Shown here in pieces: positions 482-27,850 of a DNA stretch of 64,000 bases (position 1 is its first letter; every line of letters begins with the position of its first letter). The notes below the pieces were generated by a model. It had not been told where the DNA came from and did no database searches. It saw nothing but the letters and a program-made list of their open reading frames with translations. A program made the position numbers and the translations under genes. The stretch comes from Streptomyces torulosus (GTDB lineage: Bacteria > Actinomycetota > Actinomycetes > Streptomycetales > Streptomycetaceae), in assembly GCF_001419765.1 (NCBI RefSeq), contig NZ_LIRK01000262.1, forward strand, positions 1 through 64,000. The letters are read 5' to 3'.

Positions 482-807
482 CCGTGGACGTCGACCAGCT
501 GTGCCCCTCCTGCGGCGTCGCCCCCGGGAACCTTCACGAGAAACGGTGCGACGTGGCCCGATGCGCCGCCACGGGAAGGCAGCGGAGCGGCTGCCACCAC
601 GGGGAGGGCTGCAACACCATGTGGACCGGTCAATACCCGGGGTTCGCCGAGGCCATCGAGTACGGGTACTTCGCGCGCCTGGTCCCCGGCGCGGGCTGGC
701 AGGAGTGTGCCGCCGACGCCCCGGATGCGATGCCGGACCTCAACCGGCTGTACCGCGACTGCCACTGGGATCCCCGTACCCAGCGCATGGTTCGTCACGC
801 TCGTTGA
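478..807 (+). CDS. Small Cys/His-rich zinc-binding protein, element-type hypothetical
   Basis: A 109-residue protein that starts at a GTG overlapping the previous stop. The N-terminus has a metal-site pattern: CPSCG, then an H four residues before C in HEKRC, then DVARC, then C-H-H-x-x-x-C around GCHHGEGC. This suggests one or two zinc sites. The rest is rich in Trp, Tyr and acidic residues (CNTMWTGQYPGFAEAIEYGYFARL). The Cys-rich start followed by DVARC is familiar from hypothetical proteins of Streptomyces plasmids, phages and integrative elements, but no function is known to me. Coupling to the upstream gene implies a joint role. It is followed by a hairpin terminator. Confidence 0.7.
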   Translation: MTVDVDQLCPSCGVAPGNLHEKRCDVARCAATGRQRSGCHHGEGCNTMWTGQYPGFAEAIEYGYFARLVPGAGWQECAADAPDAMPDLNRLYRDCHWDPRTQRMVRHAR

Positions 808-916
808 CCGGTTCGGGCCGGCCCCGGCAATAGCCGAAAGCGCCCCGTTGTAGCTCCGGCTGGCCGCCTGAACGGGTTGTCTTCTTCTACGAAGACGTTC
901 GGCTTGTGGTGATTGC

Positions 917-958
917 CATAGAGGCTCCGCCCCTACGCAGAGGGGAGGGGCCTCTATG
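917..958. terminator. Bidirectional hairpin terminator between convergent genes
   Basis: A perfect 9-bp inverted repeat (CATAGAGGC at 917-925 and GCCTCTATG at 950-958) encloses a GC-rich loop that can pair further. It lies between the convergent small zinc protein (ending 807) and the CoiA-like gene (ending 1036), so it could serve both. The flank after it (CTCTATGCGTTGGAA) resembles the flank of the hairpin at 6111-6139. Confidence 0.55.
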
Positions 959-1035
959 CGTTGGAACAAACGGAGAGCTGAGGATGCTACGCACCCAAGC
1001 GTTTTGAACGGACACTGGTAATGGTCGCCCAGGCC

Positions 1036-2253: not shown

Positions 2254-2277
2254 TTCTATCCCCCCGTTCCGTAATGC

Positions 2278-11110: not shown

Positions 11111-13236
11111 CGCGACCTCAGCTCCCTGTAGGTGAAGGTGGTGATCAGCGGACTGTGCGCCCGCACGAGCGGGACGAGCAGTTCGCGCACCTGGTCGTCG
11201 GCGACTGCGAGTGACAGGAACGGACTGTGTTCGGTGACGGTCTCGCGGAGCCAGCTCAGCAGGCGCAAACGGGGTTCGCCACGCTCGGGGAGCCCCGAAG
11301 GAGACGCTTCCCACAAGTCGCTCTGGAGGTCCTCAGGGAGCATCAGCGCCTCCTCACGCGTGCCGGGGAGGTGATCGCGCATCCTGTCGCGGACGGCACG
11401 GTGCAGCTCACGGGGGTCGTCCCGGCGCACGAGTTCTTCCAGGATCACGTCCTGTTCGAGGAGGGGGACGCCTTCGCGGAGCAACTCCTGTACGAGCCAC
11501 AGCAGACGCAGTTGCAGCTTCGAGTCGGCGCGGACCCGATCCAGCAGCCCGGCCCCGTCCTGCGGCCACTCGGTGAGGAAGTGCTCCAGCAGATCGAGGC
11601 CGATCAGACGGTGCAGATGGCCACGGACGGTGTGCTCGAGCTGGCAACAGAGGAACTGCGCGGCGGTCAGCACCGTGTCGTCCGGGTCGGGCTCGTTGCG
11701 CGGAACGAGCCACCAGCGGCCCCGCTCACCAGTCAGGGGGTGATACGCCGCCGGGTACGCGATGGTGTCACCGGCCGGCCACCTGCCGCCGGCCTTGACG
11801 GCATAGGCGGGGTGGTCGGCCCCACCGTGAAGGACCGGGATCTCGTTCACCTGGACCGTGAACGAGCCCGGCGCGAGATCCGTGCTCGTGCGTGCGCGCA
11901 GGCTCGGCGGCTCCGGGACCGCCATGGACCTCTGCACGCGTTCGCGCATTTCCGGGACCAGCCTGTGGAGGAATTCGCCACCGTCCAATTGCGGGTCCAC
12001 CAGATGCCTCAGCGAGTCGTGCACCTCCATCACCAGCGGTGTCATCATCGGCAGCGACCGCTGCTCGGTGGGGGCGGTGAAGCCCAGGAGCCGGTCGAGG
12101 CCCTCGGCGAGCCGGGCGCGGACCGTCCGGTCGACCTCGCCCAGTGACCCGGGAACGTCCGCTGCCGCGACGAGACGGCTCAGGCGCAGGTATGCGCCGA
12201 TACTCTCGACGGGAGCCAGGATCCCGTCAGCCATCAGCTCGCCCGCGTACTCCTGTGACAGGCCCGCGATGTACAGCTGGTGAGCCGAAGACTGGTCGCC
12301 GTCACCCACCGCGTGGACGAGGTCTTGGCCGCGCATGGCGAATCGTGTTCTGGCGAGCTTGTGGCCGAACGGCTCCTCGTACGTCGCCGGACTGCCGGCC
12401 GCCTCGACCGCCTCCCGGTGGTCGAGTAGCTCCTGTTCCCTGATCAGCTCGTCCAGGGTGCGCACTGCTGCCTGGTGGGGCTTCGGTGCTCCGATACGCA
12501 GGTACAGGTAGTCGGCGCCGCGTAGATCGAGGGCCTGGCCGTGTCGGTCGCGCACGATGACCCGTCCGCCCTTCACCTCTCCGCCCGCCACGGCGGACAG
12601 ATCGCGCCCGAACAGGACGTTCTGCTCCGGCTCATCGATCAGGGCCGTATAACGCCCGGCGACGGCCACCCGGGTTCTGGGCGCGTCCAGGAGTGCCCCC
12701 GTCCGGTCGAGGATCTCCGTGGCGACCGCGTCGGAGCCAGCGGGGTCGGCAAGGTAGTCCAGTGTGCGGGCCAGTGCCATGATCGAGGTGACCACGTCGG
12801 AGGCGCGCGTTGCCGTGTCGACGCACAGCACCAGGACCGACACGTGGCTCACGGGGGCGCCGGGGTCGCCCAGCCGGATGCCGGCCGCGGTGAGCCCCAG
12901 CGGGTTGCTGCCGCCGTGCTCCCAGAAGGTGTCGGGGCCGATCACCACGAGTTCCTGACGGACGCTCAGGTCGGAGTGGGAGGTGTGGTGCGGCCCGATC
13001 GACGCACCGCGGCCCAGCAGACCCAGGAGCAGCAGGGCCCTGGTGCCGCGCGCGGAGGCAGGGGCGGCCACGGACAGCTCACCCAGCTCGACCTGGAACC
13101 GATCCGGGAGCGGCGGTGCGCTAGCGGTGGCGAGCGCCAGCGGCCGGCCGATCGTGGCCCCGCCGGCCCGGGTCAGCTGCCGCTCCCAGCGGTCCATGAT
13201 GCCGATGCGGTCGCCCGTGGTCCGAAAGCTAGGCAT
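11107..13236 (-). CDS. FHIPEP-like C-terminal domain protein with a novel N-terminus (cluster gene 3)
   Basis: A 709-residue protein with no signal or membrane segment. Residues 1-390 are not recognised; they contain a beta-rich stretch (HVSVLVLCVDTA) and helices. Residues ~395-709 repeat the FHIPEP-like plan of the next gene in weaker form: SFTVQVNEIPVLHGG, a Trp-rich strand (RGRWWLVPR), then REGVPLLEQDVILEEL at ~587-602 where FlhA has its RDLP helix, then FLSLAVADDQVRELLVPLV and ITTFTYREL (698-706) at the end. It overlaps its neighbours by 8 bp upstream and 4 bp downstream, so the products are made together. It may form hetero-oligomers with the other FHIPEP-like proteins; that is inference. 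Confidence 0.6.
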   Translation of the reverse strand: MPSFRTTGDRIGIMDRWERQLTRAGGATIGRPLALATASAPPLPDRFQVELGELSVAAPASARGTRALLLLGLLGRGASIGPHHTSHSDLSVRQELVVIGPDTFWEHGGSNPLGLTAAGIRLGDPGAPVSHVSVLVLCVDTATRASDVVTSIMALARTLDYLADPAGSDAVATEILDRTGALLDAPRTRVAVAGRYTALIDEPEQNVLFGRDLSAVAGGEVKGGRVIVRDRHGQALDLRGADYLYLRIGAPKPHQAAVRTLDELIREQELLDHREAVEAAGSPATYEEPFGHKLARTRFAMRGQDLVHAVGDGDQSSAHQLYIAGLSQEYAGELMADGILAPVESIGAYLRLSRLVAAADVPGSLGEVDRTVRARLAEGLDRLLGFTAPTEQRSLPMMTPLVMEVHDSLRHLVDPQLDGGEFLHRLVPEMRERVQRSMAVPEPPSLRARTSTDLAPGSFTVQVNEIPVLHGGADHPAYAVKAGGRWPAGDTIAYPAAYHPLTGERGRWWLVPRNEPDPDDTVLTAAQFLCCQLEHTVRGHLHRLIGLDLLEHFLTEWPQDGAGLLDRVRADSKLQLRLLWLVQELLREGVPLLEQDVILEELVRRDDPRELHRAVRDRMRDHLPGTREEALMLPEDLQSDLWEASPSGLPERGEPRLRLLSWLRETVTEHSPFLSLAVADDQVRELLVPLVRAHSPLITTFTYRELRSR

Positions 13237-15844
13237 GATGCTCCTCCTCCGACTCCAGTTCGGCCCGGTCGGCGCGCAGATCGCTCAGCAACCGGGTCAC
13301 GTCGGCCCTGAGGGATGCGTACAGGCCGGTGAGGATGGGGTGCGGCTCACGCTCCTGCTCCGGCCCGATCAGGTTCTCCGCGAGGGTGCGCAGGACGTCC
13401 GAGGCCCGTACGAGGCGGTCGCGCAGCGGAGCCAGTACTTCCTTCCGATGCGCCTCCCACCGAGCCACCAGCGTCTTCTCCTCCTCGAAGAAGGCGTGCA
13501 GGCGATCGGCCGTCCGGTCGTCCCCGGAGTCCAGAAAGGCCCACCACAGTTCGCTCAGTTCCAGCGCGCGGGGGCTGTCGCCGTTGTCGTACGCCCTGGA
13601 GACGGGCGGGTCGTCCGTGACGATCTCGGGTGTGAGCTTGCCGTACGAGAGCATCAGGTCGTCCACCTTCTGCCGCAGGTGCGCGATGGTGGCCAACCGG
13701 TGGCCGAACGACCGGGCGGAGGATGCGGAGGTGACGACGGCACCCAGATCCACCGTGGTGTCCTCCAGCGCCGCGTCCAGCTCCTCGACATGGGAAATCC
13801 AGCCGCTCGCCGGGGTCTCGGTACGCGGCCTCGACCGATAGCGCGCAAGGGCCTCCTCGATGGGGAAGTCGGTCGCCTGAAGCACCTCGCACAGCCGCTC
13901 CGCGTACAAGTGGGGGTGTGTGCCGAGGCGGCCTGCCTCGTGGTCGGTCGCCAGGTGCCGAGTCGCGCGTTCGCCCAATTGCCGGCGCTCCTCAGGAGTG
14001 ATGCGACACTGCAGCGCCACGGTCAGCTCGGCGTGGGACAGGTCGGTGTCCGTAGCCCAGACACCCTCTTCCTCAAGGATCGTCTGTGCTCGCTGATGCT
14101 CGCCGTGGAAGTCGTACTCCCTTGCCACCTGGAGCCGTTCGAACCGGTCACGGGACTGACGGAGCACGCGGTCGAGGACGGCGACGGTATTCTCCCGGTC
14201 GATGTCGTCGGGGCGCTCCTCGCGCAACCGGCGCTGCAGGATCGCCAGTTCCAGCAGCTCCGAACTGCTCTCGGCCCGGCTGCCCGCCAGCAGGAGTAAG
14301 TCCTCCGCGTCGTCCGTGCGCTGGTGCTTGGCAGCGAGATCACAGGCACGGACGAGGTCCTTGAACTCGAAGCGGCCGAGGCTGAGCATCCGCTCGAAGA
14401 GCGCGGTGGCGTAGTCGGTCCCGTCGGCACCCGTGGTCCTGGTGTCCAGGCCTACGTCGAGGACCGTCTCGGCGGTCTCCAGCAAGGCCAGGGGATCCTG
14501 CGAGTTCTCGGAGAGGACCAAGTCTACCAGGTAGCCGGCCGCCCGGGTGAACTGCGCGGCCGCCAACTCGCCGACGAGCCGCATCGCCGACCGGTGGTTT
14601 CCGGTCCGGGCGTAGCCGGTGAGCGAGGTCTCGATGGCCGTCGCCTTCTCGCCGCGGGCTTCCTGCGCCCGGGCCCGGTCCTCGTCCGGCCAGTTTGCGC
14701 CGGGGGCGGCCACGTACTTTATGTCGCCGGTCTCCGCGGCCAGCCAGGCGGCGATCGAGGCTGTGCGGGCGTCGTCCTCTTCGCCCGCCAGAGTTAGGGC
14801 CTCCTCACTGAGAGTCACCGCTTCAGGGACGAGGCTGACACCCTGGAACAGGGAGATTCCCAGCACCCATGACAGGTTCGTGGACGCCAGGCTCGCGATA
14901 GCGAAGCCGGCGCCCGCCGGGGCGCGGGACATGGACCGGCGGAGGTGGTGGTCGGCCTCGAAGTGATGGCGCCTGCGAAAGGCCAGCTTGCCGAGTTCTA
15001 GGTCGATGAGCCAGTCGTCCATGGGCTGCCACAGGCAGGCGTTGAGGAAAGCCGAGCAGCGTGCGAGCTCGGCCTGGTCGAGTTCGCCGTCCGTGCCCTG
15101 GAGGACCTCCAGGGTGGGCTTGTCAAGCTCCAGGTGCGGGCCGCCGCTGTCGCCGGAACGGACGATGATGCCGAGCATCGCCGCCCGGTGGCGGTGGTCG
15201 GGCCAGCTGGAGCACCGGTAGCGGGCTAGTGCGGCCTCCCACTGGCCCTGCCGCTCGTCGATCTTCCCGAGGAGGTCGAGCACCAGCGGACTGGACTGGT
15301 CGATGCCGGGGGCGGTCAGCACCGAGCGCGCCTCGTGCACGGCTCCGATCTCTACGAGTTCCAGGGTGTACTGGAAGACGAGGGGCAGAAAGGTGTGTCC
15401 GCCGCGGCGTTCGACCCGCTCACGGAGCCGGGCCAGCCGCTGGACGGGCGGTTGGTCCGGGCCGAGGACGGTGTACTCGGTGGGGAGCTCACCGGCCTCG
15501 GTGAGCAGGGACCTCCCCAGTCGGGTGAACCCGTTCCAGCACAGGATCTGCCCCCACACCGCGCGGAGTTCAGCGGTCGCGGGCTGTCCTTCAGCGGCCA
15601 GACGGTCCCGCAGCAAGGCTTGGGCGTCCTCGGCGGTCCGCTGGGCGGCCGGCTTGCCCGCCACCCTGCTGAGCCAGGAGAGGTAGCCGCTGACGGTGAC
15701 GGCCTGGCTCAGCAGGCGCAGCCGGACGTGCCTGTCGGTGGCGGCATTCAAACGCCTCAGCAACTCGTGGAGCGATGCCTGCCAGGTGGGCACGTCCGTG
15801 CTGGACAGAAAGGTCTCATAGGGATCAGCGGTCACGTTTCCCAC
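13229..15844 (-). CDS. Large helical-repeat (TPR-like) scaffold protein (cluster gene 2)
   Basis: An 871-residue protein starting at a GTG 4 bp after the STAND gene stop. It is almost entirely amphipathic helices in TPR-like pairs, for example LELVEIGAVHEARSVL, GQWEAALARYR and EYDFHGEHQRAQTILEEEG, which suggests an alpha-solenoid. The C-terminal ~150 residues are predicted coiled-coil or long-helix (LHAFFEEEKTLVARWEAHRK, then an Asp/Glu-rich end). I see no catalytic motif, and it is the one gene of this arm without a clear FHIPEP-like end. A scaffold or adaptor between the STAND protein and the FHIPEP-like pair is the natural guess. Confidence 0.6.
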   Translation of the reverse strand: MGNVTADPYETFLSSTDVPTWQASLHELLRRLNAATDRHVRLRLLSQAVTVSGYLSWLSRVAGKPAAQRTAEDAQALLRDRLAAEGQPATAELRAVWGQILCWNGFTRLGRSLLTEAGELPTEYTVLGPDQPPVQRLARLRERVERRGGHTFLPLVFQYTLELVEIGAVHEARSVLTAPGIDQSSPLVLDLLGKIDERQGQWEAALARYRCSSWPDHRHRAAMLGIIVRSGDSGGPHLELDKPTLEVLQGTDGELDQAELARCSAFLNACLWQPMDDWLIDLELGKLAFRRRHHFEADHHLRRSMSRAPAGAGFAIASLASTNLSWVLGISLFQGVSLVPEAVTLSEEALTLAGEEDDARTASIAAWLAAETGDIKYVAAPGANWPDEDRARAQEARGEKATAIETSLTGYARTGNHRSAMRLVGELAAAQFTRAAGYLVDLVLSENSQDPLALLETAETVLDVGLDTRTTGADGTDYATALFERMLSLGRFEFKDLVRACDLAAKHQRTDDAEDLLLLAGSRAESSSELLELAILQRRLREERPDDIDRENTVAVLDRVLRQSRDRFERLQVAREYDFHGEHQRAQTILEEEGVWATDTDLSHAELTVALQCRITPEERRQLGERATRHLATDHEAGRLGTHPHLYAERLCEVLQATDFPIEEALARYRSRPRTETPASGWISHVEELDAALEDTTVDLGAVVTSASSARSFGHRLATIAHLRQKVDDLMLSYGKLTPEIVTDDPPVSRAYDNGDSPRALELSELWWAFLDSGDDRTADRLHAFFEEEKTLVARWEAHRKEVLAPLRDRLVRASDVLRTLAENLIGPEQEREPHPILTGLYASLRADVTRLLSDLRADRAELESEEEHHA

Positions 15845-15848
15845 CGCC

Positions 15849-18800
15849 TCACTCCGTGACCGTGAGGGTTACCGAGCCGCCCAGTACCCGCGTGGTGCCC
15901 TCCTGCAACTCCAGAGGGCTCAGCACGCGAAGTCGCCGGTCGACCGGGAGCAGCAGCCGGGCGAGCGGGTACCGCAACGGGGCACTGGTGATCAGGACCG
16001 GATAACTGCGATCGTCGTCGCGCAGGGCGGCGGTGGCCACACGGCTGACCGCCTGGACCAGCCTTCTGGTCTGGGTGGGGTCCGCCAGCAGTGAGGGGCC
16101 GCCGCGCTGCCGAACCTGGTTGTTGAGCCGGTCCTGGAGCTGCCGCTCGAGTGTGATGACGGTGAGCCGTGTGGAGTCGCCGAGCGCGGAGCGGGAGACG
16201 TCGGCGCGCAGGAACACCCGGATCGGCGCGAGGAAGTCCGCGGGGTCGCGGCCGCGGCCGAGTCCGTTCAGCTTCCACAGCTCGGTGAGCAGTCCGTCCC
16301 GTCCGCTGTCCAGCCGGACCCCTTCCTCGACGAGGTTCACCATGATCTGGCGTACCAGGGAGCCGTTCACTTCGAAGCGGTGCCCACGGGAATTCGTCGT
16401 TGTCCCCTGCAGCTCATCGACCAGTTCCATGGCGAGGCCCCGGTCGAAGAGGCGGTCGAAGTTGCTGCGACAGTGCTCCTCCAGCCAGTCCAGCAGGGTG
16501 GCCTCGTTGTCCTTGGCCATCGTCGCGCCCAGCTCCCGCGCCTGCTCGGCGGGAAGCCAGACGAGTGCCCTGTCGGCACCGTCGTCCGAGCCGGGGCGGG
16601 GCTCGGGAAGCCCTTCGTGGGCCAGCTGCTCCCATCGGCGCCTGGCGAGCTGTACATGCCCCGGAGGGAAGAGGCCCCTCGAGACGCGCTGCCCACGGAT
16701 ACGGAGCTCCGCCTCGTCCCGCTCGCACTCCCCGGGGACCAGGCTCAGGTCGGGCAGCGGTGTGCCGATGCGCTCACGCAGTTGCTTGGACCACGCAGCC
16801 ATTTTCGCGGGGGAGACCTCGGCCGCCAGGTCCTTCCCCAGTACGAGGCCCAGTGCCGTGGCCGCCCGGCCACCGTGCGCCGCCATGGCGCGAGAGGGCA
16901 CGATGCCGTCGGTGCTCACCGCGGCGAGCCAGGCGTCGACGAGGTCCGGGGCGACCAGTTCGTCGGCGTGCTCCTGCACATACCAGTAGTCGGATGTCTT
17001 GAGCAGCTCGGCCGAGTGGCTCAGGGTGAGTACCAGCTCGCCGCGGTCGTGGTTGCAGGCCAGCACGACCAACTCGAGGGCCGTCCGCGGAAGGCGGCCC
17101 GGCTCCCCGCGTACCTTGGACAGGGCGATCTCCAGGAAGCCGGTGAGCACCTTCTTCCGGAAGCGCGCGGCGGACAGGGGCTCCGCCAGGATGTCCGCGA
17201 TGGCGCGGCGCACCGAACCGGTTTGCGGGCCGGACTCGGCCAGCACCATCTCGGTGAGGAACTCGTGTGCCGCACGTCCGTCCAGTTCGATCAGGTAGCG
17301 CAGGACCGCCTCACGGCTCCCGGCCGGGCAGTCTTCGAGCCATGCGCGGCAGAGTTTGATGCGCTCGGCTTGATCGGGGAACATCTGGGTGAACGCCCAC
17401 CGGCCGAGGTTGTCGTGCACGAGCGCGGAGAGCACGAAGCACTCCATGGCGCCCCGGCCCAGGGCACGGCGCGCGTCGGCATCCTGTCTCGGGAACAGAA
17501 GCTCGAAGTGACCAGTGCTGTCGACGGCGCTCCTCGTGTCGCGTGCGTCGCCACGCCCGCGGCCCGCCGCCGCGTAACTTTCGGCCACGACCTCGCGGTG
17601 TTCCATCAGCGCCTGTACGTCCTCGGCCGACAGCAACTGCTGCGTGTGTTCCCAACTGTGGGCGTACAGGGCGAGGCGGTCCAGGGCGCGCCATGTGGCG
17701 GGCGTACCGCCTGGGCGGCCGAAGCCGCGGATGTCCGCCCCGCCGTGCACCATGACGTCGCGCAGCAGATGGTCGCGCAGGTTGGCGTGGAAGAACTCGA
17801 CGAACCGCGGCCGACCCGCGAACGCGGAGCGGGTGCCGCCCGCTCGGACGTGGACCGTACGGCCGAGTGTGCCGAGCATCCACAGATGCTCGAGAACACC
17901 CGTCATACCGAGTTCGTGTACCCGTCGGGTCAGCTTGGGATTGACGAGTCGCAGCCGCCACCACACCTCCTCGACTCGGACGATCTCGGTACGCGCATGT
18001 GCCATGGCCAGGAGGAAGTACCAGGCGAGATCGTCCCGGGCGGCGGCCACCAGGTCGAGGTCGAACAGGTGCTCCCATGGTCGATGGTGGTCGAGGTCTC
18101 CAGTCGACAGTTCACCGCCGACATCCTGTGACAGCAGGTGGATGAGAGCGAGTGAGGTGTTGAGCGGGTGTCCCTTGACCTTCGAGACCAAGTACTGGGC
18201 GACGTCGCCGGGCAGAGTCAGATCGGAGCGGATCAACTCCTGCTCGCGGCACCATGCGACGCTCTTTTCCACGAAGTAGCGCTGTTCGCCGGCGTCTGTG
18301 ATCGCCTGCAGCACCTGGAACTCCAGCCGCGAGCGGGCCGCCTTCGCCGACGATCCGAGGAAGTCCGGCAGGTACTGCTTGCGGGAGGCGACGAAGAAGC
18401 GGACGCCCCGGTCCGCTCGGACCGTCTCGAGCAGGGCGACGAGGTTCTTCGAGACCTGCGCGAGCAGCTCCGAGTTCGGTTCGTCTCCGGACTCGAAAGT
18501 GCGCTCCAACTGGTCGATGAAGATGACCACTTCGTCGATTCCGTGAGGGGACCTGCGTAACCCGCGCACCGTCTCATGGAGGAACCCCCCGAGGTCGGTG
18601 GCCTCCGACAGGAGCAGGCCGGCGGCCTCGCCCAGCTTCTCCCGGATCGCGGCCACTGTTTCCCCGCGAATGCGGGCCTGGACGGCGGCCCACTCGGAGT
18701 TCGGGGCGTCGACCCGGTACCAGACCGCGATACGCGACGTCTGGCCGGCGATCGTCTCGTAGAGGTGGTGCAGGAAGCAGCTCTTGCCCGTCCCTCCGGC

Positions 18801-20669
18801 ACCGGACAGATAGAGGTGGAAACGCTCCTTCTGCCAGACGAGCTTGGTCGCCGAGTAACGTTCCTCGCCCACCGAGCGGTCGTAGTAGCGGTCGCCCGAC
18901 GAGATGGCGCGCAGATCCATCAGGTGGGGGAAGACCGCCGGCTCGACCTCACCGAAGGCCTGGGCGAACAGGGGGAGGCCCGCCCACGACCAGCAGTGCC
19001 AGGTCAGCGCCTGGCGCAGCAACGGCGCGTCGCCGCACTCGGCGGCTCGCCCGGCCACCAGGCTCCGGATCCCGGTCACGATGCTCGGTGCGGCAAGCCG
19101 GTCACCGTGGTCGCGAACGGCCGCCTCCAGCGCGTCGAGAAGTTCCGGGTGCGCCAGTCGAGGGTCGCCGACGGTCAGGAACGGCAGCAGGTCCAGCGTC
19201 TCGCGGACCGCGTCGGCTCCGATCTCCTCGGGTGTGAAGGACATTACGGCCCGCGTCGTCGCCGCCTTGTCCGCCCGTATCCCGTTCACCACGTCGGCCA
19301 GGCTTGTCCGGCCGTCGGTCAGCAGGGCGTCCGCGCTCGCGGTCGTCGTCGTCCGCGCCGCCGCCCGCTGTACGCGTATCTGGGCGTGCTGTGACCGTTG
19401 CCGGAGCGTGCGGGGCCGGCTGTCGGAGTCCACCGGGGTGAAGTAGGGGGCTCCGGCTCCGACCGCCAGGAATCCGTCCGCTCCGTCGCCGCCCGTGTAC
19501 GCCAGCGGGATCGCCGTCCGCAGCCGGTCGAGCAGTTCTCCGCGGCCGCACCAGGCCACCGGCTGACAGATGCCGGCCCGGCGCACTCTGTCGATGAGCC
19601 CCGCCAGTCGGCTCTGGGCTGCCACCAGCTCTTCCCAGATACGCCGCCCCACCTGCACCAGTTCGGGTACGTCGGCCTTCTCGGCCGCCGCTGCCGCGGC
19701 TGTGACACGATCGAGGACGTCGGTGCTGAGCGACACCGTCAGATGCCGCTGTGTCCGCGGGAACTCCGCCTCGGTCAGCGGTGCGTCCTCGGCCTCGACC
19801 GCAATCTGTATCGGGCTGCGGACCGGTGCCGCGCCGATCAGCAGCCGGTCCGTCTCGGCGCTGAAGGAGCTGCCCCCGAACCACCGGAGGGCGGGGGCGT
19901 CGTCATGGGCCGCGGTGGTCTTGATCGGTTCGTAGTCGGTGCCGGGCGGAGGCCGGTCGCCGAGGATCGCTTCGCGCAGGCGCTTCTTCAAAGAGTTGTA
20001 GGACTGCTTCGACTTCAAAATGCTGAAGTGATCCCCCGGGAGAGCAGCGGCTTCGGGGAAAACGCTCTGTGCCGAGGCCGGGGTAACGATACCGTCGCTC
20101 TCGCCCGCGAACACCGTGAACGGAATCCGGCAGGTACTCGCTGTCGCCTCCGGTGCGGCATAGACGACGTTCCGCAAGACCGCGCGCCGTGTGTTCTTGA
20201 TCTCCTCGTCAAAGGGCTTCAGCTGGTGTTCCTGCGGGTTGTTCCGGACGAGCAATTTCCGCAGGATCCCTCCGAACTCGGACCCGTCGTTCGGGCAGCC
20301 GAAAAGTACGATCCGCCGAATACGCTGCAGATCGAATCCCCGTTGTTCCGAGAGCATCACGGTGAGGTAGCGCTGGATGATGAGACCACCCTGACTGTGT
20401 CCCACCAGGACGAGACGCCCGAAGTTCTCGGCTTCGGTGTCCAGGAATTCCTTCAGACTTTCGGCGACCGTGCTGAAGGAGGGTATCGACTGCATGGGAT
20501 TCGGCTTGTAGAGGCTGGTTGCGTACTTGAACCTCAGAGGCGTCACCTCCTCGTTCAGGTCCGCGTCCTCGGCCAGGAATTCCCCAAGGGTGTCCCACGT
20601 CTCCGGCCCCGACATGAATCCGTGAACGAACACCACACCGAGCTCGTCCCGAACCGGTGACATCGCCAT
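15849..20669 (-). CDS. Alpha/beta-hydrolase - STAND NTPase - FHIPEP-like giant protein (cluster gene 1)
   Basis: A 1606-residue multidomain protein. Residues ~8-235 are a lipase-type alpha/beta hydrolase: VVFVHGF, nucleophile Ser92 in GHSQGG, Asp192 in GESDG, His214 in GDHFS. After a linker region (240-600) comes a STAND-like P-loop NTPase with Walker A GAGGTGKS (623-630), Walker B VVIFIDQLE (Asp719), an arginine-bearing FFVASRKQYL and a winged-helix-like segment KVKGHPLNTSLAL. A long helical region (~870-1250) follows. The last ~300 residues resemble the FHIPEP-like ends of the two downstream proteins (VEEGVRLDSGRDGLL near 1450; LRVLSPLEL near the end). The start ATG has AAGGGGG 3 bases upstream. 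STAND proteins usually oligomerise on sensing a trigger; a lipase head would be the effector. Confidence 0.75.
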   Translation of the reverse strand: MAMSPVRDELGVVFVHGFMSGPETWDTLGEFLAEDADLNEEVTPLRFKYATSLYKPNPMQSIPSFSTVAESLKEFLDTEAENFGRLVLVGHSQGGLIIQRYLTVMLSEQRGFDLQRIRRIVLFGCPNDGSEFGGILRKLLVRNNPQEHQLKPFDEEIKNTRRAVLRNVVYAAPEATASTCRIPFTVFAGESDGIVTPASAQSVFPEAAALPGDHFSILKSKQSYNSLKKRLREAILGDRPPPGTDYEPIKTTAAHDDAPALRWFGGSSFSAETDRLLIGAAPVRSPIQIAVEAEDAPLTEAEFPRTQRHLTVSLSTDVLDRVTAAAAAAEKADVPELVQVGRRIWEELVAAQSRLAGLIDRVRRAGICQPVAWCGRGELLDRLRTAIPLAYTGGDGADGFLAVGAGAPYFTPVDSDSRPRTLRQRSQHAQIRVQRAAARTTTTASADALLTDGRTSLADVVNGIRADKAATTRAVMSFTPEEIGADAVRETLDLLPFLTVGDPRLAHPELLDALEAAVRDHGDRLAAPSIVTGIRSLVAGRAAECGDAPLLRQALTWHCWSWAGLPLFAQAFGEVEPAVFPHLMDLRAISSGDRYYDRSVGEERYSATKLVWQKERFHLYLSGAGGTGKSCFLHHLYETIAGQTSRIAVWYRVDAPNSEWAAVQARIRGETVAAIREKLGEAAGLLLSEATDLGGFLHETVRGLRRSPHGIDEVVIFIDQLERTFESGDEPNSELLAQVSKNLVALLETVRADRGVRFFVASRKQYLPDFLGSSAKAARSRLEFQVLQAITDAGEQRYFVEKSVAWCREQELIRSDLTLPGDVAQYLVSKVKGHPLNTSLALIHLLSQDVGGELSTGDLDHHRPWEHLFDLDLVAAARDDLAWYFLLAMAHARTEIVRVEEVWWRLRLVNPKLTRRVHELGMTGVLEHLWMLGTLGRTVHVRAGGTRSAFAGRPRFVEFFHANLRDHLLRDVMVHGGADIRGFGRPGGTPATWRALDRLALYAHSWEHTQQLLSAEDVQALMEHREVVAESYAAAGRGRGDARDTRSAVDSTGHFELLFPRQDADARRALGRGAMECFVLSALVHDNLGRWAFTQMFPDQAERIKLCRAWLEDCPAGSREAVLRYLIELDGRAAHEFLTEMVLAESGPQTGSVRRAIADILAEPLSAARFRKKVLTGFLEIALSKVRGEPGRLPRTALELVVLACNHDRGELVLTLSHSAELLKTSDYWYVQEHADELVAPDLVDAWLAAVSTDGIVPSRAMAAHGGRAATALGLVLGKDLAAEVSPAKMAAWSKQLRERIGTPLPDLSLVPGECERDEAELRIRGQRVSRGLFPPGHVQLARRRWEQLAHEGLPEPRPGSDDGADRALVWLPAEQARELGATMAKDNEATLLDWLEEHCRSNFDRLFDRGLAMELVDELQGTTTNSRGHRFEVNGSLVRQIMVNLVEEGVRLDSGRDGLLTELWKLNGLGRGRDPADFLAPIRVFLRADVSRSALGDSTRLTVITLERQLQDRLNNQVRQRGGPSLLADPTQTRRLVQAVSRVATAALRDDDRSYPVLITSAPLRYPLARLLLPVDRRLRVLSPLELQEGTTRVLGGSVTLTVTE

Positions 20670-21069: not shown

Positions 21070-23355
21070 ATGAGTGATATCAAAGAACGGCTCGACGCGG
21101 TGCTGCACAGGCGGCGGGAGTACCTTCCCGTGGTCGACGAACTGATCGACCGGTGGCGCCGGATCCTGCGACTCTCCCAGGAACTCGGCAACGGGGCCAC
21201 CGAGGGCGTTCCCGGCCTCGGGAAACAGGACGGCCCGGCATCGGACTCCCTGGACGCGACGGTGCTGGTGAGGGCAGCACAGGAGTGTCTCGAGGTACTC
21301 GCTACGGTCCGCAGCAGGGTCGCCCGGGACACCGTCGACATCGGCGTGAGCGGCCGGGCCCGCAACGGCAAGAGCACACTGCTCCAGTCGCTGTCCGGGC
21401 TGGGCGACGAGCAGATTCCCGCGGGCCGGGGGCAGCCCGTGACCGCTGTCCGCAGCCGGATCTACCACTCCGCGACCGACCGGGGCGCGCGGTTGACGAT
21501 GCACTCCGAGCAGTCGTTCCTCGACTCCGTGATCGCTCCGTTCCACACCGAACTCGGTCTCCATCCGGCCCCGCGCAATCTGACGGAGTTCGCGGACTAC
21601 GACTATCCGCGGGAGATCCGGGCGGAGGACGTCAAGGCCCAGCCCACGCTGGGTCCGATGCTGGCCCGGGTGCGCGAGGCCCAGGAGGCGCTCGACACCT
21701 ACCGGCACTGCCTCACCGGTGAGACCCGCAGTGTGGACCTGAAGGACATCAGGGAATGGGTGGCCTATCCGGAGGACGGACCGGGTCCCGTCAAGCGGTC
21801 CTATCTGGCCGTCAGGGACGCGGTGCTCACCTGCCCCTTCCCCTTCGAGGACGTCTCCGCGCTGGGGCTGGGGGACCTGCCGGGCCTGGGCGAACTGGTC
21901 CCCGAGGCGGAGGCCCACCACCTCGACGGCCTGCGCAACGAGGTGGACTTCGTCGTCGTCGTCAAACGGCCGACCGACACCAACGCCATGTGGGACAAGG
22001 CGGATGCCAACGCCCTCCAGCTCGTCGGCAGTGTCTGCACCGCGGTCGACGTACGCGACTTCGTCCTGATCCTGGTCAACACGGGCGACTGCCTGACGGA
22101 GAACGTCAAGGCGCTCGACGACGACCTGCGCCGACGGCTCAACGGCCCGGACACGCAACGCGCCTACTGGGTGATCCTCGCGGACGCCCAGGACCGCGAC
22201 GCCGTGCGCGACCACGTTCTCCGGCCGGTTCTGGAGCATCTGGCAAACGCGCTGCCGCGGATGGACGAGGCGGTTCTCCAGGATGCGGAAGCGCGCTGCC
22301 GTGAGCGCATGGACTTCATCACGAGAGAACTGGCCGCCTGGTCCGAGGCACTGCGTGCCCTCGCGGCGCCCACGGCCACGGAACAGACGATCGCCCGGGC
22401 CGAACTGCTGAGAGAGGAGGTGGCGGCCTCCACCCAGGCCTGGGTCGACACCCTGCGGGCCCGCGCCGGGGACGACTTCGAGGACACCGAGTTCCTGGAG
22501 CGCGTCTCGGAAGTGCACGAGGAAGTCCGCACCTGGGTGCTCACCGGGTTCGGCACCGGGGCCGAGCGGTGGCAGGAGCGGGCGCTGAACCGTGTGCGTG
22601 TCGACCGGGCGTCCCTGCCCTTCGCCTCCGCCGAGCTCAACCGGGTGCGAGTGGAGATCGCCCGCCGCTTCTCCGCCGTGGACGACCTCCTCCAGCAGCG
22701 CCTGGACGAGTACTGGGCGGGTCTCGTCGACGCGCTCGGGCCGCGCTTGGCCCTGCTGGTCGGCGACGCACACGGCGACGCGGACACCGGGCGGTCCCGG
22801 GCCTTCCTGCAAGCGCTGGCCGATGCCCTGCGGGAGGCCTACGACCCGTGCCCGGTCCTGGCCGAGACGATCGACTTCGCCCTGGACGTCCGCCTCGACT
22901 ACCGCACTCGGGTGCTGCCGAGCGTGCGCCGGGCGCTGGGCGTGCTGCATCCCGAACCGGACGATCCGGCACACGACTCGGGCCCGACCAGTCTGCTCGC
23001 AGTGCCGCGTACGGCCGAAGGCGCCGAGCTGCTGCTGGAAAGGATCACCCAGCTGGCCCGGCAGGCGGCGTACGACGCCCAGACGGTGCTCGCCCAGGAG
23101 CCGGCGACCGCCGCCCAGGCGCTCTTCGCGTACGCCGAGCAGTTCGAGGACTCCTTCGTACGGTCCGAGTCCTCCGAGGCCGAGTTCCGGCGCCTCGTGG
23201 GCGCGTTCCAGGACCGTATGTGGCCCGAGGACCGCACCGGGCACCGGGAGACGACGGAACGCGTCCGCCGCCTACGCGGCCTGGTGGCCGAGCTCGAACG
23301 CCTGCTCGGCGAGGGCCGGCCGGGCCGTATCACCACCGGGAGGGCAGCACGGTGA
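21070..23355 (+). CDS. Dynamin-like large GTPase (cluster gene 5)
   Basis: I choose the ATG at 21,070 (MSDIKER), 7 bases after a GGGGGG ribosome site; an upstream in-frame start at 21,049 is less likely. The 761-residue product has a GTPase core after ~90 helical residues: G1 GRARNGKST (95-103), G3 GDLPG (D269-G272), G4 NTGD (337-340). The remaining ~400 residues are long helices, as in dynamin-type and other large bacterial GTPases, and end with an Arg-rich helix. No membrane segment is seen. It is the first gene of the rightward arm, and the next gene begins in its stop codon. GTP-driven remodelling or a nucleotide switch is expected from the family; the role here is unknown. Confidence 0.72.
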   Translation: MSDIKERLDAVLHRRREYLPVVDELIDRWRRILRLSQELGNGATEGVPGLGKQDGPASDSLDATVLVRAAQECLEVLATVRSRVARDTVDIGVSGRARNGKSTLLQSLSGLGDEQIPAGRGQPVTAVRSRIYHSATDRGARLTMHSEQSFLDSVIAPFHTELGLHPAPRNLTEFADYDYPREIRAEDVKAQPTLGPMLARVREAQEALDTYRHCLTGETRSVDLKDIREWVAYPEDGPGPVKRSYLAVRDAVLTCPFPFEDVSALGLGDLPGLGELVPEAEAHHLDGLRNEVDFVVVVKRPTDTNAMWDKADANALQLVGSVCTAVDVRDFVLILVNTGDCLTENVKALDDDLRRRLNGPDTQRAYWVILADAQDRDAVRDHVLRPVLEHLANALPRMDEAVLQDAEARCRERMDFITRELAAWSEALRALAAPTATEQTIARAELLREEVAASTQAWVDTLRARAGDDFEDTEFLERVSEVHEEVRTWVLTGFGTGAERWQERALNRVRVDRASLPFASAELNRVRVEIARRFSAVDDLLQQRLDEYWAGLVDALGPRLALLVGDAHGDADTGRSRAFLQALADALREAYDPCPVLAETIDFALDVRLDYRTRVLPSVRRALGVLHPEPDDPAHDSGPTSLLAVPRTAEGAELLLERITQLARQAAYDAQTVLAQEPATAAQALFAYAEQFEDSFVRSESSEAEFRRLVGAFQDRMWPEDRTGHRETTERVRRLRGLVAELERLLGEGRPGRITTGRAAR

Positions 23356-24503
23356 CCCTGTCGTTCAAGGCATCGATGGTGGGCCCGTCGAGAGTGGGCA
23401 AGACGACCTTGCTCACCGCCGTTCTGGCCGAGACGGAGACCATGCTGGCGGGCAGCGGGATCAGCCTCGTCATGGACGAACAGACGGAGTTGCGGATCCG
23501 GCGCAACCGCGTGGAACTGCGCAGGGCCATCGAGGCGCGGGAGTTCGACGCCGCCTCGCTGAGCGGCAGCCAGTCGATGGCGCTGTACGAAGTGGGTCTG
23601 CAGGCGGTCGGGGAGAGCACACCGGGCATCCCGTTCAGCGTGCTCGACTATCCGGGCGAATGGCTGGACCCGTCGAAGCGTGCCCAGCATCCCCGTGCCA
23701 AGGCGCAGTGGGCCACGTGCGAGGCACATATCTCCGAAAGCCTGATGCTGCTCGTTCCGGTGGAGGCGGCCGTCCTGATGGAAGCGGTGACTCCCGCGCA
23801 GCGGCGGGCGGTCGCCGACCTGCTCGCCTTCGAGGACGTCGAGGCCATGGCCCGCAAGTGGGCGCGCGCCCGCAACCAGCCGGCCCACCAGGACGAGCCG
23901 GCCGTCCTGGTGCTCGCGCCGATCAAGTGCGAGAAGTACTTCGACGACAACGGCGGCAAGGGCCGGGACGCGGCACGGCTGCGGCAACTAGTGCGGGAGA
24001 AGTACCGGACGATCACGGAAGTGGTCCAGGCGGAGGCGAAGAACCGGGACATGAGGGTCATCTACGCCCCCATCGACACCTACGGCTGCGTGGACCTGAT
24101 GGAAGGGCAGTGGCACAAGCCGCTCGATGACGACGGACCCGAGCTGGACTTCCGCGGCCACTACCGGTTCCGGGAGATCCCGCCCATAGTGAGGCCCAAG
24201 GCGGCCGCCACCGTCATGCGTGAGCTGTGCCGGTGTGTGGTGTCGGGCCAGGACACCGCGGAACGCCGCCGGGCGGAATCCGCACGCGTCACCTACCAGG
24301 CGGCCCTGGAGCGCAAGTCGGAGCCCAAGGGATTCTGGGGTGCGCTCGACTACTACCTCCTGGGCGAGGCCCTCGACAACAGGAACCTCCGGTTGAGCAA
24401 TCAGCGGGTGATCGGAGAGGCCGCGCGACGCCAGGAAGAGCTCCAGGCCGTCCTCGAATGGATGGCCAAGCAGCCCGCCGACGAACGAGTGGAGGAGTGG
24501 TGA
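23352..24503 (+). CDS. Small GTPase of the double-GTPase/TRAFAC type (cluster gene 6)
   Basis: Starts at a GTG that overlaps the previous stop (GTGA); 383 residues. It opens directly with a P-loop, VGPSRVGKTTLL (GxxxxGKT at 11-18). An Asp-Tyr-Pro-Gly switch (D99 to G102, in LDYPGEW) follows. Then comes VLVLAPIKCEKYF, where a canonical NKxD would be expected but the specificity motif is divergent. A C-terminal segment predicts a helix pair and has no membrane span. It looks like the second partner of tandem GTPases seen in predicted bacterial conflict systems. Two consecutive GTPases translated together suggests a heteromeric switch. Assignment to a named family needs a profile search. Confidence 0.65.
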   Translation: MTLSFKASMVGPSRVGKTTLLTAVLAETETMLAGSGISLVMDEQTELRIRRNRVELRRAIEAREFDAASLSGSQSMALYEVGLQAVGESTPGIPFSVLDYPGEWLDPSKRAQHPRAKAQWATCEAHISESLMLLVPVEAAVLMEAVTPAQRRAVADLLAFEDVEAMARKWARARNQPAHQDEPAVLVLAPIKCEKYFDDNGGKGRDAARLRQLVREKYRTITEVVQAEAKNRDMRVIYAPIDTYGCVDLMEGQWHKPLDDDGPELDFRGHYRFREIPPIVRPKAAATVMRELCRCVVSGQDTAERRRAESARVTYQAALERKSEPKGFWGALDYYLLGEALDNRNLRLSNQRVIGEAARRQEELQAVLEWMAKQPADERVEEW

Positions 24504-25303
24504 GCGGTCGGACGCGTGCCTACCTGATGACGCGGGGCAAGATGCGGAACCAGGGGTACGGCTTCCTCGGCGAGGTCCCGCCGGAGGTGTGGTGGGAGCC
24601 GGTCGCCCCCTGGGTGATCCTGGAGAGCGAGGAACTCGTCGTCCGCCGGGGTGCGGACGGTGTCACCGGCCTGCTCATCAGCGGTGTCCCCTCCCAGCGC
24701 ACCGATGTGATCGGCACCCGCATCCGGCACACCGTGGTGCTCGACTACGCGCACCTGGAGCCCCGGCTCGCCCTGTGGCTGGTGCGGTGCGGACTGAGCG
24801 ACGTGGAGCGGACCGAGCTGGGAGAGGCTCTGGACACCGCCTTCGACGGCGACCTGGTACACGCCCTCATGTCCGATCCGAACGCCGACATCGAGGACCG
24901 GCTGCTCGGCGTGCTCCGGCGGGCAGCCGGGGACGTGACTGCGGAAGCCGGGGGCGACGACCTCCTCGGCTCGTGGACCGGCGCTGTCCGAGACGAGACG
25001 GCCGTCACGGCCTTTCTCGCCCGGGCCCGAAACCTCCTGGAGGACGGAGGGCCCGGATACGCCTTCACGACCCACGCAATCGGCAGCCCGGATGGCGCCC
25101 GCCGAGCGGCGAGGGCACTGGCCGGTACAACGGCCGTACTGCTCCATGAAAGTGACATACGAGGAGTCGAACCGCTGGGAAAAGTACCCGGCCAGGCGCC
25201 GCAGAGCCACGCCCCCACCGGGAGCTGGAAGGCGTATCTCGTGGCCGCTCTGGTGGTTCTGGCGGTGCTCCTGGGCGTCTGGTGGCTGGTCCGGCGGCTC
25301 TGA
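24500..25303 (+). CDS. C-terminally membrane-anchored protein of unknown family (cluster gene 7)
   Basis: A 267-residue protein starting at a GTG that overlaps the GTPase stop. The N-terminal ~140 residues form a mixed alpha/beta domain (FLGEVPPEVWWEPVAPWVILE, then GLLISGVPSQRTDVIGTRIRHTVVLDY) that I do not recognise. The last ~25 residues are a single hydrophobic helix ending in Arg (AYLVAALVVLAVLLGVWWLV, then RRL), so the bulk faces the cytoplasm as a tail-anchored protein. This would tether the GTPase arm to the membrane, in keeping with the lipase-like head in the other arm. The link is inference. Confidence 0.6.
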   Translation: MSGRTRAYLMTRGKMRNQGYGFLGEVPPEVWWEPVAPWVILESEELVVRRGADGVTGLLISGVPSQRTDVIGTRIRHTVVLDYAHLEPRLALWLVRCGLSDVERTELGEALDTAFDGDLVHALMSDPNADIEDRLLGVLRRAAGDVTAEAGGDDLLGSWTGAVRDETAVTAFLARARNLLEDGGPGYAFTTHAIGSPDGARRAARALAGTTAVLLHESDIRGVEPLGKVPGQAPQSHAPTGSWKAYLVAALVVLAVLLGVWWLVRRL

Positions 25304-25974
25304 CGGATGCGCTGGCGGGCGTCCGGGCCTTGTACAGGGAGGTCACCAAGGACATCGCACTGCCGCCGGGCTCCACGGATGACGGCCGTGCCGGTCACTT
25401 GGCCGTGGACATGCTCCTGCCCGCGGTGACGGGCAGCCTGACGACCGACCGCGAGTATCCCGGTGACGGGCGGATCGTGCTGCTCGAGCACAGGGGGAAG
25501 AACCTGGTCCGGGGGGCCTTCCGCTTCACGACGCACGACGCGCGCCAGTCGATCGGCTTCGAGTTCGACCACTCTCTCTCGAGTGAACTGCGCATCTTCG
25601 GTCATTTGTGGGATGAAGCCACCGAGCGCCGATTCGACCTTTTCCGCCTGCATCTCGCGGCTTTCCTCCGTGACGCCGTCGAAAGACTCCAGTGCGTGGA
25701 GGAGTTGTGTGCTGCGTCGGCCGGTGCGAGAACGTCCGATGAGCATGTGGCCCACGCGGAAGCCCTGTGGGCCCGCTCCCGGTTGCTGCTGATCCGCGAC
25801 GACATCGAGAAGGCCGCTCGCTGCGCGGTCGAGGGCGCCGAACACGCCGAGCGTTCCGCAGGGGCGCCCGGCTGCCATCTGGAGGCAGCCGGGCGATCGC
25901 TTGCGCGCGTCCTTGACGTACTGCATCAGTCCGGGACCGCCCAACAGGTCAGGCGGAGTCTGCGCGGCACATGA
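25282..25974 (+). CDS. Small orphan protein closing the cluster (cluster gene 8)
   Basis: The 230-residue frame starts at a GTG inside the end of the previous gene (22-bp overlap), or slightly later. The middle has beta strands (GRIVLLEHRGKNLVRGAFRF) and the second half is helical and Ala/Arg-rich. No signal peptide, membrane segment or catalytic motif is seen. The overlap, shared strand and matching codon use argue that it is real and part of the rightward arm. The family is unrecognised. Confidence 0.5.
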   Translation: MAGPAALTDALAGVRALYREVTKDIALPPGSTDDGRAGHLAVDMLLPAVTGSLTTDREYPGDGRIVLLEHRGKNLVRGAFRFTTHDARQSIGFEFDHSLSSELRIFGHLWDEATERRFDLFRLHLAAFLRDAVERLQCVEELCAASAGARTSDEHVAHAEALWARSRLLLIRDDIEKAARCAVEGAEHAERSAGAPGCHLEAAGRSLARVLDVLHQSGTAQQVRRSLRGT

Positions 25975-26971: not shown

Positions 26972-27850
26972 TTGGTAGTGACGCGGTTACGACACCAGCA
27001 CGACCAAGGAAGCCCGTTGCCTGATCAGTTGAGCAGTATCTCTGCGTCTGCGTCCACCGCGGTCACCCCTGGGTGTGACTGCTCCGTGCACCGGTTCGGC
27101 TCGATCGCGCCGGGACGGCGGGCAGGCTGCTATCCCAGTGACATGACGGATGCGGAATGGTCCGAGGTCCGCGCCGCGATGCCGGTGCCGGCCTGGCTCC
27201 TCAAGCGGGGCGGGCGTCCGGAGGAGTTCTGCCACCGCGAGATGCTCGACGCGGTGCGCTACCTCGTCGACAACGGCGTGAAGTGGACGGCTCTGCCGGT
27301 CGATTTCCCGTACTGGCGGGCGGTCTACGACTTCTTCCGCCGCTGGCGGTCCTACGGCTATGCGCGTGAACTGTACGAACGCCTGCGACGTTCGGCGAGG
27401 GATCGCGCAGGCCGCAACGCCGAGCCCAGTGGCGGGATCATCGACAGTCAGTCGGTGGACGCCTCCGAAACCGTCGGCGAGGACAGCCGCGGATACGACG
27501 GCGGCAAATCACGTGACGGGCGCAAGCGCCACATCCTGACCGACACCGAGGGCCTGCTCCTGGAAGTGACTGTGACCACGGCCGATGTGCACGACTCCAA
27601 GGCCGCCCCCGCACTGCTGGAGACATTCATGCAGCAGCCGGGCCGGCTGCTGAAGCTGGTGTGGGTCGACAGCGCCTACCAGGGTCGGGCGCTGGCGAAG
27701 GCGTTCGCCCGCCACGGCGTGCGCGTCGAGGTCGTACGCCGCTTGGACGGGCGGCGCGGATTTGTCGTACTGGCCCGCAGGCGGGTGGTGGAGCGCACGC
27801 TGAGCTGGCTGGCCCCCTCCCGCCGCCTCAACCGTGTCAACTCGCAGTAG
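26972..27850 (+). CDS. IS5-family DDE transposase, C-terminally truncated
   Basis: A 292-residue frame; the family-like part begins around 27,086-27,143 (PSDMTDAEWSEVRAAMP). Then come the RWRSYG and RLRRSARDRAGR region, first Asp in GGIIDSQSVDASE, GRKRHILTD, second Asp in VWVDSAYQG, and Glu in VVERTLSWL, so the DDE triad is present. IS5-type enzymes normally continue about 30 residues past RLNR (the DYERR...AII segment); here the frame ends at RLNRVNSQ. The element has lost its right end, and an unrelated gene follows, so it is probably immobile. Confidence 0.75.
   Translation: MVVTRLRHQHDQGSPLPDQLSSISASASTAVTPGCDCSVHRFGSIAPGRRAGCYPSDMTDAEWSEVRAAMPVPAWLLKRGGRPEEFCHREMLDAVRYLVDNGVKWTALPVDFPYWRAVYDFFRRWRSYGYARELYERLRRSARDRAGRNAEPSGGIIDSQSVDASETVGEDSRGYDGGKSRDGRKRHILTDTEGLLLEVTVTTADVHDSKAAPALLETFMQQPGRLLKLVWVDSAYQGRALAKAFARHGVRVEVVRRLDGRRGFVVLARRRVVERTLSWLAPSRRLNRVNSQ

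Follow-up and report, generated by a model that had tools for sequence, protein, structure and literature searches.

Two adjacent, overlapping GTPase genes, which we call GTPA and GTPB, form together with two further genes, P3 and P4, a compact operon in the window, that is, the whole 64,000 nucleotide stretch (positions 1 to 64,000 of contig NZ_LIRK01000262.1) from the 9.85 Mb genome of Streptomyces torulosus. The operon is probably a GTPase-centred system of the immune or membrane-stress type, which contains a dynamin-like partner and lacks GAP1. Judged from the sequences of the operon and its relatives, our leading interpretation, to which we assign a probability of roughly 0.48, is that it encodes a membrane-associated two-GTPase switch that would gate exchangeable effectors and that would be related to, but distinct from, the double-GTPase (DO-GTPase)/GAP1 conflict systems. 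The operon reaches to about 25974 and hence beyond positions 21070 to 24503, to which a sequence-only reading of the window had been limited. Its features are the following, all on the plus strand:

21070 to 23355, GTPA, an open reading frame of 761 residues for a large GTPase resembling the dynamin superfamily, with N-terminal helices, a GTPase domain at about residues 88-400 and a helical C-terminal half; overlapped at its 3' end by GTPB
21343 to 21378, G1 motif (P-loop) of GTPA, GVSGRARNGKST, residues 92-103; G-x4-GKS in 19/19 sequences
21874 to 21885, G3 motif of GTPA, DLPG, residues 269-272; D-x-PG in 19/19
22078 to 22089, G4 position of GTPA, NTGD, residues 337-340; Asn in 19/19, Asp at the fourth position in 3/19
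23352 to 23355, GTGA stop/start overlap of GTPA and GTPB; 4 nucleotides in 12 of 15 junctions
23352 to 24503, GTPB, a 383-residue GTPase with a GTG start, related to DO-GTPase2 and YcjX according to profile and fold comparisons
23382 to 23405, G1 motif (P-loop) of GTPB, GPSRVGKT, residues 11-18; GK[ST] in 16/16
23646 to 23657, G3 motif of GTPB, DYPG, residues 99-102; Glu at the next position in 2/16
23919 to 23939, G4 variant of GTPB, PIKCEKY, residues 190-196; KCE in 16/16
24500 to 25303, P3, 267 residues, with a hydrophobic C-terminal tail and a GTGA overlap with GTPB; no family assigned
about 25300 to 25974, P4, about 224 residues, fast-evolving and without a known family; the start codon is uncertain, with GTG at 25282 as the alternative

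GTPA is likely a dynamin-superfamily-like protein, an assignment supported mainly by the fold of a weak model. When this model was searched with Foldseek, all 32 chains found at an expectation value (E) <=0.001 belonged to the dynamin superfamily, with query template modelling scores of 0.18-0.29. These chains include SynDLP, BDLP, IniA, the mitofusins and Fzo1, the C. jejuni pair, Drp1 and OPA1. A re-examination of Foldseek's own match list with VIA-align placed dynamin-superfamily proteins in the top 17 rows (Z 11.6-15.3, root-mean-square deviation 5.4-10.7), followed by translation GTPases at 10.8. The distance between G1 and G3 amounts to about 170 residues and holds several predicted helices. 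On the sequence level, the Pfam profile Dynamin_N matches 10 of 10 aligned members at E<=0.5 (best 4.8e-4), all of them below threshold; the GTPA of the window reaches 11.7 bits, where the cut-off is 27. The term "dynamin-like", used for this protein in the sequence-only reading, is thus upheld mainly at the level of the fold.

For GTPB, the profile comparisons point to another family. DO-GTPase2 (PF19993) matches 8 of 9 members, all sub-threshold, with 13.6 bits against a cut-off of 27 for the protein of the window. MMR_HSR1 and Roc likewise match 8 of 9 members weakly, and DUF463 (YcjX) reaches 2 of 9, again sub-threshold (best 3e-4). On their own, the GTPA and GTPB of the window therefore both stay below the Pfam cut-offs, and the link to DO-GTPase2 comes via relatives. 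The homologue on an Aulosira plasmid, which has the KCE motif, passes the cut-off with 36.4 bits against 27. A second homologue, from the Streptomyces genome G001 (E 4.9e-83 to the GTPB profile), scores 27.2 bits when the in-frame neighbours are included and 26.0 when the gene is taken by itself. A direct comparison by hhalign of 15 GTPB sequences (L059 omitted from 16) with 11 DO-GTPase2 sequences gave 95.6% (E 1e-8), and P3 and P4 gave 0.1-0.2% with the same set. This reference was made up of 11 of 13 rows; the omitted ones were G001, itself a GTPB homologue, and one without a P-loop in the extracted piece. The structural model of GTPB (predicted local distance difference test, pLDDT, 72.7) has YcjX in the top rows of VIA-align, with Z 12.2-12.5 over 246-256 residues and many other GTPases within 1 Z. 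On these profile and model comparisons, GTPB is a divergent GTPase of the DO-GTPase2/YcjX type, related to the DO-GTPase class but not one of its standard members. Other searches added little: NCBIfam gave no match for GTPA, P3 or P4 and matched GTPB in the P-loop only, searches of the PDB with single sequences returned nothing informative, and profile searches of the PDB gave weak matches, nearly all confined to the P-loop regions.

The nucleotide-binding motifs were compared in 19 GTPA sequences, reaching from Streptomyces to cyanobacteria, and in 16 GTPB sequences, the window being included in both tables. The GTPA table was drawn up without L056 from Pseudanabaena and L058 from Anabaena, which are short or split, and without Nostoc carneum; for L050 the start was taken as 9001 (annotated, 9064). 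The P-loop and the DxPG of GTPA are invariant. At the G4 position, by contrast, the Asn is fixed, the Asp is rare and N/TKxD does not occur at all (0/19). In GTPB, GK[ST] and DxxG are found in every sequence, the latter as DxPG in 15 and as DPSG in L053, and the first Gly of the P-loop is replaced by Ala in L050, L022, L061 and L053. Both families thus have the P-loop (TRAFAC) GTPase motifs GK[ST] and DxxG, and neither has the G4 motif [N/T]KxD. P-x-KCE-x-Y is invariant in all 16 GTPB sequences, so that APIKCEKY is a family-wide variant and not a sign of decay. GTPase genes on a Nostoc plasmid show TKCD and SKCE at what is, by eye, apparently the matching place, and one reference DO-GTPase2 has SKCD at G4; KCE accordingly looks like a G4 in which Glu stands for Asp.

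These data bear on several statements of the sequence-only reading. The consecutive genes for 761 and 383 residues with their GTGA overlap (23352-23355) are as it described them, and so are the P-loop and the DxxG third motif, which hold throughout both families. Its "clear G4" in the large GTPase is not borne out, since NTGD is no conserved N/TKxD. The APIKCEKY of the small GTPase does depart from N/TKxD, as had been noticed, but has to be reinterpreted as a strictly kept feature. With a loose G4 in GTPA and a fixed KCE in GTPB, the contrast that had been drawn between the two is reversed, and the proposal of one active switch with one altered partner finds no support in that form: any eroded G4 would be that of the large protein.

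One partner could be a pseudo-GTPase: GTPA might bind nucleotides but not be specific for guanine, or GTPB might be a regulator that does not hydrolyse. The G4 of GTPA, which retains the Asn alone, would suit this, as would the Glu that replaces the G4 Asp in GTPB and the lack of a conserved residue right after its DxxG. The P-loop Lys and the G3 Asp are, however, present in every sequence of both families examined, and both proteins are under purifying selection. We regard a pseudo-GTPase as possible but on the unlikely side; it is compatible with the other readings.

Is the operon then a canonical DO-GTPase/GAP1 conflict system, corresponding to System 2 of Kaur et al. 2020? The profile relationship of GTPB to DO-GTPase2 speaks for it, and the effector types overlap, as that paper (PMC7159879) lists TIR, caspase-superfamily peptidases and alpha/beta hydrolase. 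Several observations speak against it. If the Glu directly after DxxG is taken as the Walker-B Glu of Kaur et al., it is present in 2/16 GTPB sequences versus 11/11 reference sequences. Neither the window's genome nor G001, the carriers searched, yielded a GAP1-M match at E<=0.001, GTPA is no paralogue of GTPB, and P3 is not detectably a GAP1-N2 protein. The idea that P3 might be a divergent GAP1-N, which had arisen by eye, was dropped after hhalign against nine GAP1-N2 sequences (9 of 10 loci, L072 omitted) gave 0.1%, a comparison with little power. With neither the Walker-B Glu nor a GAP1 partner, the operon is not a canonical DO-GTPase system, and we consider this assignment quite improbable.

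The genes of the operon appear to belong together. The overlap between GTPA and GTPB measures exactly 4 nucleotides in the window and 11 further junctions, a count that leans on the choice of start codons, because in L016, L017, L019 and L059 the gene caller had chosen a later ATG and the in-frame GTG or TTG at the overlap was used instead. The exceptions are L050 with an overlap of 1 nucleotide, L053 with a gap of 51 nucleotides and L022 with an inserted gene. This insertion (L022, 7115-8308) is by eye an IS110-like transposase that splits the pair. In the seven named loci L015-L021, relatives of GTPA, GTPB and P3 follow each other in the same order. Across loci, the pairwise distances of these three proteins correlate with 0.95-0.97, a value reached in 0 of 5000 permutations. 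The ratios of nonsynonymous to synonymous substitution rates are about 0.3 for GTPA and 0.2 for GTPB (versus L015 and L059), and about 0.4 for P3 and 0.8 for P4 (versus L015 only), showing that GTPA, GTPB and P3 are constrained genes and that P4 is the most variable one. Directly upstream of GTPA, we also saw by eye a highly similar gene for 130 residues in L016 (6069-6461) and L059 (6134-6526).

P3 may provide the membrane link. A hydropathy peak near the C-terminus, with a 19-residue mean of 1.98-3.17, is present in 14 of 16 P3 and P3-like proteins and lower in L021 and L060; the highest such means are 1.83 in GTPA and 1.82 in GTPB. These values come from plain hydropathy rather than from a membrane predictor, and the set counts the third genes of Nonomuraea and Aulosira, whose homology to P3 is unproven because hhalign gave just 23%; position, size and hydrophobic segment agree. 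L050, L022 and L061 carry a different fourth gene, which is related among these three.

The distribution of the operon is rare and patchy. Within the genus, 6 of 199 genomes have GTPA and 11 of 392 have GTPB, one of the latter as a partial match at E 6e-6. Among 396 genomes of the phylum, the GTPA profile found only the window's own, and GTPB was detected in two (E<=0.001), namely the window's own and a 62-residue match at 5e-4. Named holders are Kitasatospora, Paractinoplanes, Streptacidiphilus and Nonomuraea, and homologues of GTPA lie on plasmids of Nostoc, Calothrix, Aulosira, Stanieria, Anabaena and Pseudanabaena. Many of these holders are filamentous or multicellular. A phage origin was considered and discarded: neither GTPase has a tblastn match in the phage collection, and the four operon proteins have no PHROGs match (E<=0.01).

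This distribution also bears on a role in sporulation or cell division. DynA and DynB are the names of the septation pair of Streptomyces, and two adjacent GTPase genes in Streptomyces, of which GTPA is dynamin-like, could be a pair of this kind. A conserved septation pair would not be confined to 6 of 199 genus genomes, however, and the genome has another adjacent pair above the Dynamin_N cut-off on contig C135; GTPB, moreover, is not dynamin-like. The core DynA/DynB pair was rejected on distribution, and a division role of this type is extremely improbable.

The neighbourhoods of 16 GTPB loci were surveyed for effector-type genes, with Pfam applied to selected large neighbours, none of them in L022, and to GTPB alone in L053. 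Such genes lie nearby in 9/16 loci. CHAT (caspase-like) genes are the most frequent and occur in five, L017, L019, L023, L055 and L060. In L019 the CHAT gene overlaps P4 by 4 nucleotides, and in L023 it lies on the same strand with overlapping genes, so that both are apparently in the operon. L055 (Nonomuraea) has two CHAT genes just upstream of GTPA, and in L060 the CHAT gene is divergent and fused to WD40. Furthermore, a TIR protein that includes an AAA/STAND-like part is encoded in L015, a patatin just upstream in L021, and an nSTAND-WD40 protein beyond the operon on the opposite strand in L050. Of 10 Streptomyces genomes with GTPB, 4 have a CHAT gene no more than 4.5 kb away from it, whereas 0.08 would be expected in the 10 kb to each side (Poisson about 1e-6); the test was made post hoc on loci where CHAT had already been seen and is uncorrected for clustering in islands. 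The control comprised 33 CHAT matches in about 87 Mb of the 10 GTPB genomes, G727 with its partial match being left out of the 11. In L059, a protein with RHS repeats, ricin-lectin and Pretoxin-HINT domains (3-4835) was observed about 2 kb upstream of GTPA; it is polymorphic-toxin-like and does not enter the effector count.

In the window itself, one gene comes into question, 400 bp away from the operon and divergent from it:

15849 to 20669, minus strand, a protein of 1606 residues, possible effector, with an alpha/beta hydrolase, a STAND-type ATPase and an FlhA-C-like (FHIPEP) domain

From its position only, it is possible that this protein is part of the system. Its STAND/AAA matches are below the cut-offs. 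In 199 genus genomes, the matches outside its own genome cover the hydrolase part only (residues 5-252), and the protein hence gives no independent support as the operon's effector. It is one of three genes of a single divergent cluster (9605-11110, 11107-13197 and 15849-20669, minus strand) that carry the cytoplasmic, C-terminal FHIPEP domain of FlhA/SctV without the membrane part. Among 150 genus genomes, FHIPEP matches were found only in the window's own, in these three genes. Among 15 of the 116 plasmid relatives, those with an annotation are SctV of type III secretion with 26-29% identity. The repeated, non-catalytic FHIPEP domains could act as homotypic adaptors. The same cluster holds a protein of 871 residues (13229-15844, minus strand) for which neither a Pfam match (E<=0.01) nor a relative among the plasmids was found. 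Downstream of the operon, an IS4/5-type transposase at 27143-27850 fits a mobile region.

A membrane-stress or repair module that kills nothing would explain part of these data as well. GTPA would then work like DynA of B. subtilis, by clustering at the membrane and giving it support, and GTPB like YcjX in envelope stress, and the CHAT, TIR and STAND genes would be mere passengers of an island. Both GTPases do resemble membrane-stress proteins. According to PMC8844932, this DynA forms clusters on the membrane and delays lysis by phages, and PMC11237479 (2024) predicts a DO-GTPase-family protein in membrane-related stress and cites the YcjX structure beside it. In addition, 7/16 loci (L016, L018, L020, L022, L053, L059 and L061) show no effector-type neighbour among the genes examined. 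The patchy distribution, the fast-evolving P4, the enrichment of CHAT and the apparent in-operon CHAT genes of L019 and L023, however, suit a conflict system better than a housekeeping function. We therefore judge the repair module somewhat unlikely.

For the switch that gates effectors, we can envisage the following course. GTPA and GTPB would act jointly at the inner face of the membrane, with P3 as a tether. A perturbation of the membrane, caused for example by an infecting phage, would be sensed via the assembly of GTPA or via P4 and would alter the nucleotide state of the pair. This change would free or activate the adjacent, exchangeable effector, which would damage or kill whichever compartment of the multicellular hypha or filament is infected. 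Candidate effectors are the CHAT protease, TIR-STAND and patatin, and in the window possibly the hydrolase-STAND-FlhA-C protein. In animals, the dynamin-family guanylate-binding proteins act upstream of caspases, a parallel by analogy only. The logic would be that of the GTPase-centric conflict systems, with a dynamin-like partner replacing GAP1; the combination of a switch with variable effectors has a precedent in Kaur et al. 2020 (PMC7159879). A more far-reaching version, in which a mitofusin/dynamin-type and a YcjX-type KCE GTPase form an undescribed immune-switch family, in which the two together would sense the membrane as a heteromer and license exchangeable killers, mostly CHAT, seems rather doubtful to us.

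A number of observations weigh against the gated switch. The AlphaFold2 model of GTPA has a mean pLDDT of 59.4, with most of the C-terminal half below 50. When Dynamin_N and DO-GTPase2 were run against the whole genome of the window at E<=0.001, GTPA and GTPB, respectively, were not among the matches, and YcjX is absent from the best 50 Foldseek rows for GTPB, which are led by mitofusin and EF-Tu. The genes are not always together: G001 (79% complete) contains GTPB and P3 without a GTPA match, two Calothrix plasmids contain GTPA without a GTPase annotated nearby, and homologues of the window's P4 were detected in L015-L019 and L059 only. To the loci without an effector-type neighbour we add that the link of hydrolase-STAND to the operon is a single case, seen in the window only, and that no shared adaptor domain was detected among the effector genes. 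A general tendency of CHAT and STAND genes to gather in islands is conceivable, and their proximity may then reflect a shared habitat. PADLOC gave no match at E<=0.1 for GTPA, P3 and P4 and for GTPB only PDC-S01, over 25 P-loop residues (E 0.0036), and no published phenotype for the operon was found. The limited range of P4 and the post hoc nature of the CHAT test have slightly lowered our confidence. The earlier suggestion that paired GTPases are predicted in conflict systems proved a good lead, given the DO-GTPase2 link via relatives and the effector-type genes in 9/16 loci.

If the gated switch is correct, two membrane-stress GTPase families would be joined in one immune-type switch of multicellular bacteria, and a compact operon would be at hand for studying how a dynamin-like protein gates a caspase-like protease. 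The GTPase-centric conflict systems would also be widened past their GAP1 core, and GTPB would be a GTPase family whose specificity motif, KCE, is non-canonical and yet strictly conserved. We found no description of a pairing of dynamin and DO-GTPase in a literature search that left subscription journals mostly uncovered and supplements excluded; the word "dynamin" is absent from the main text of Kaur 2020 (PMC7159879) and from two related papers.

With the DO-GTPase/GAP1 systems (PMC7159879), the operon shares a DO-GTPase2-related core, two GTPases, membrane-linked components and variable effectors of overlapping types. It differs from them in that its second GTPase is dynamin-like and not a paralogue, in the lack of GAP1 and in the unconserved Walker-B Glu; the G4 of the DO-GTPase2 reference is KxD in 11/11 sequences, whereas GTPB has KCE. 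YcjX (DUF463; PDB 6nz4-6nz6) is the top VIA match of GTPB, but shares only about 11-13% identity with it and has different gene neighbours. The bacterial dynamin-like proteins SynDLP, BDLP, IniA, the C. jejuni pair and B. subtilis DynA have a GTPase domain with long helices like GTPA and are its best structural matches. Their genes are often paired in operons, according to PMC6104087. Unlike in these pairs, the partner GTPB is no dynamin, and GTPA has its long G1-G3 stretch and no conserved G4 Asp.

The homologues of GTPA on the plasmids of Aulosira, Stanieria, Nostoc and Calothrix share about 28-34% identity over 330-410 residues, and some are annotated as "dynamin family protein". Their partners vary, unlike those of the operon: Stanieria has a DO-GTPase-like gene, Nostoc has three GTPase-like genes, which lie on the opposite strand, and Calothrix has none annotated. 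On the Stanieria plasmid pSTA7437.02 (L054, 7851-15757), the GTPA homologue is followed by the DO-GTPase-like gene, which is sub-threshold, by a gene for 992 residues and by a probable membrane gene. The 992-residue gene had looked GAP1-N1-like by eye; Pfam gave PX alone (E 0.035), and this is not claimed. It is possible that this locus links the GTPA family to GAP1-type systems. The Aulosira plasmid, finally, retains a GTPA, a GTPB that has KCE and a third gene whose product contains a hydrophobic segment.

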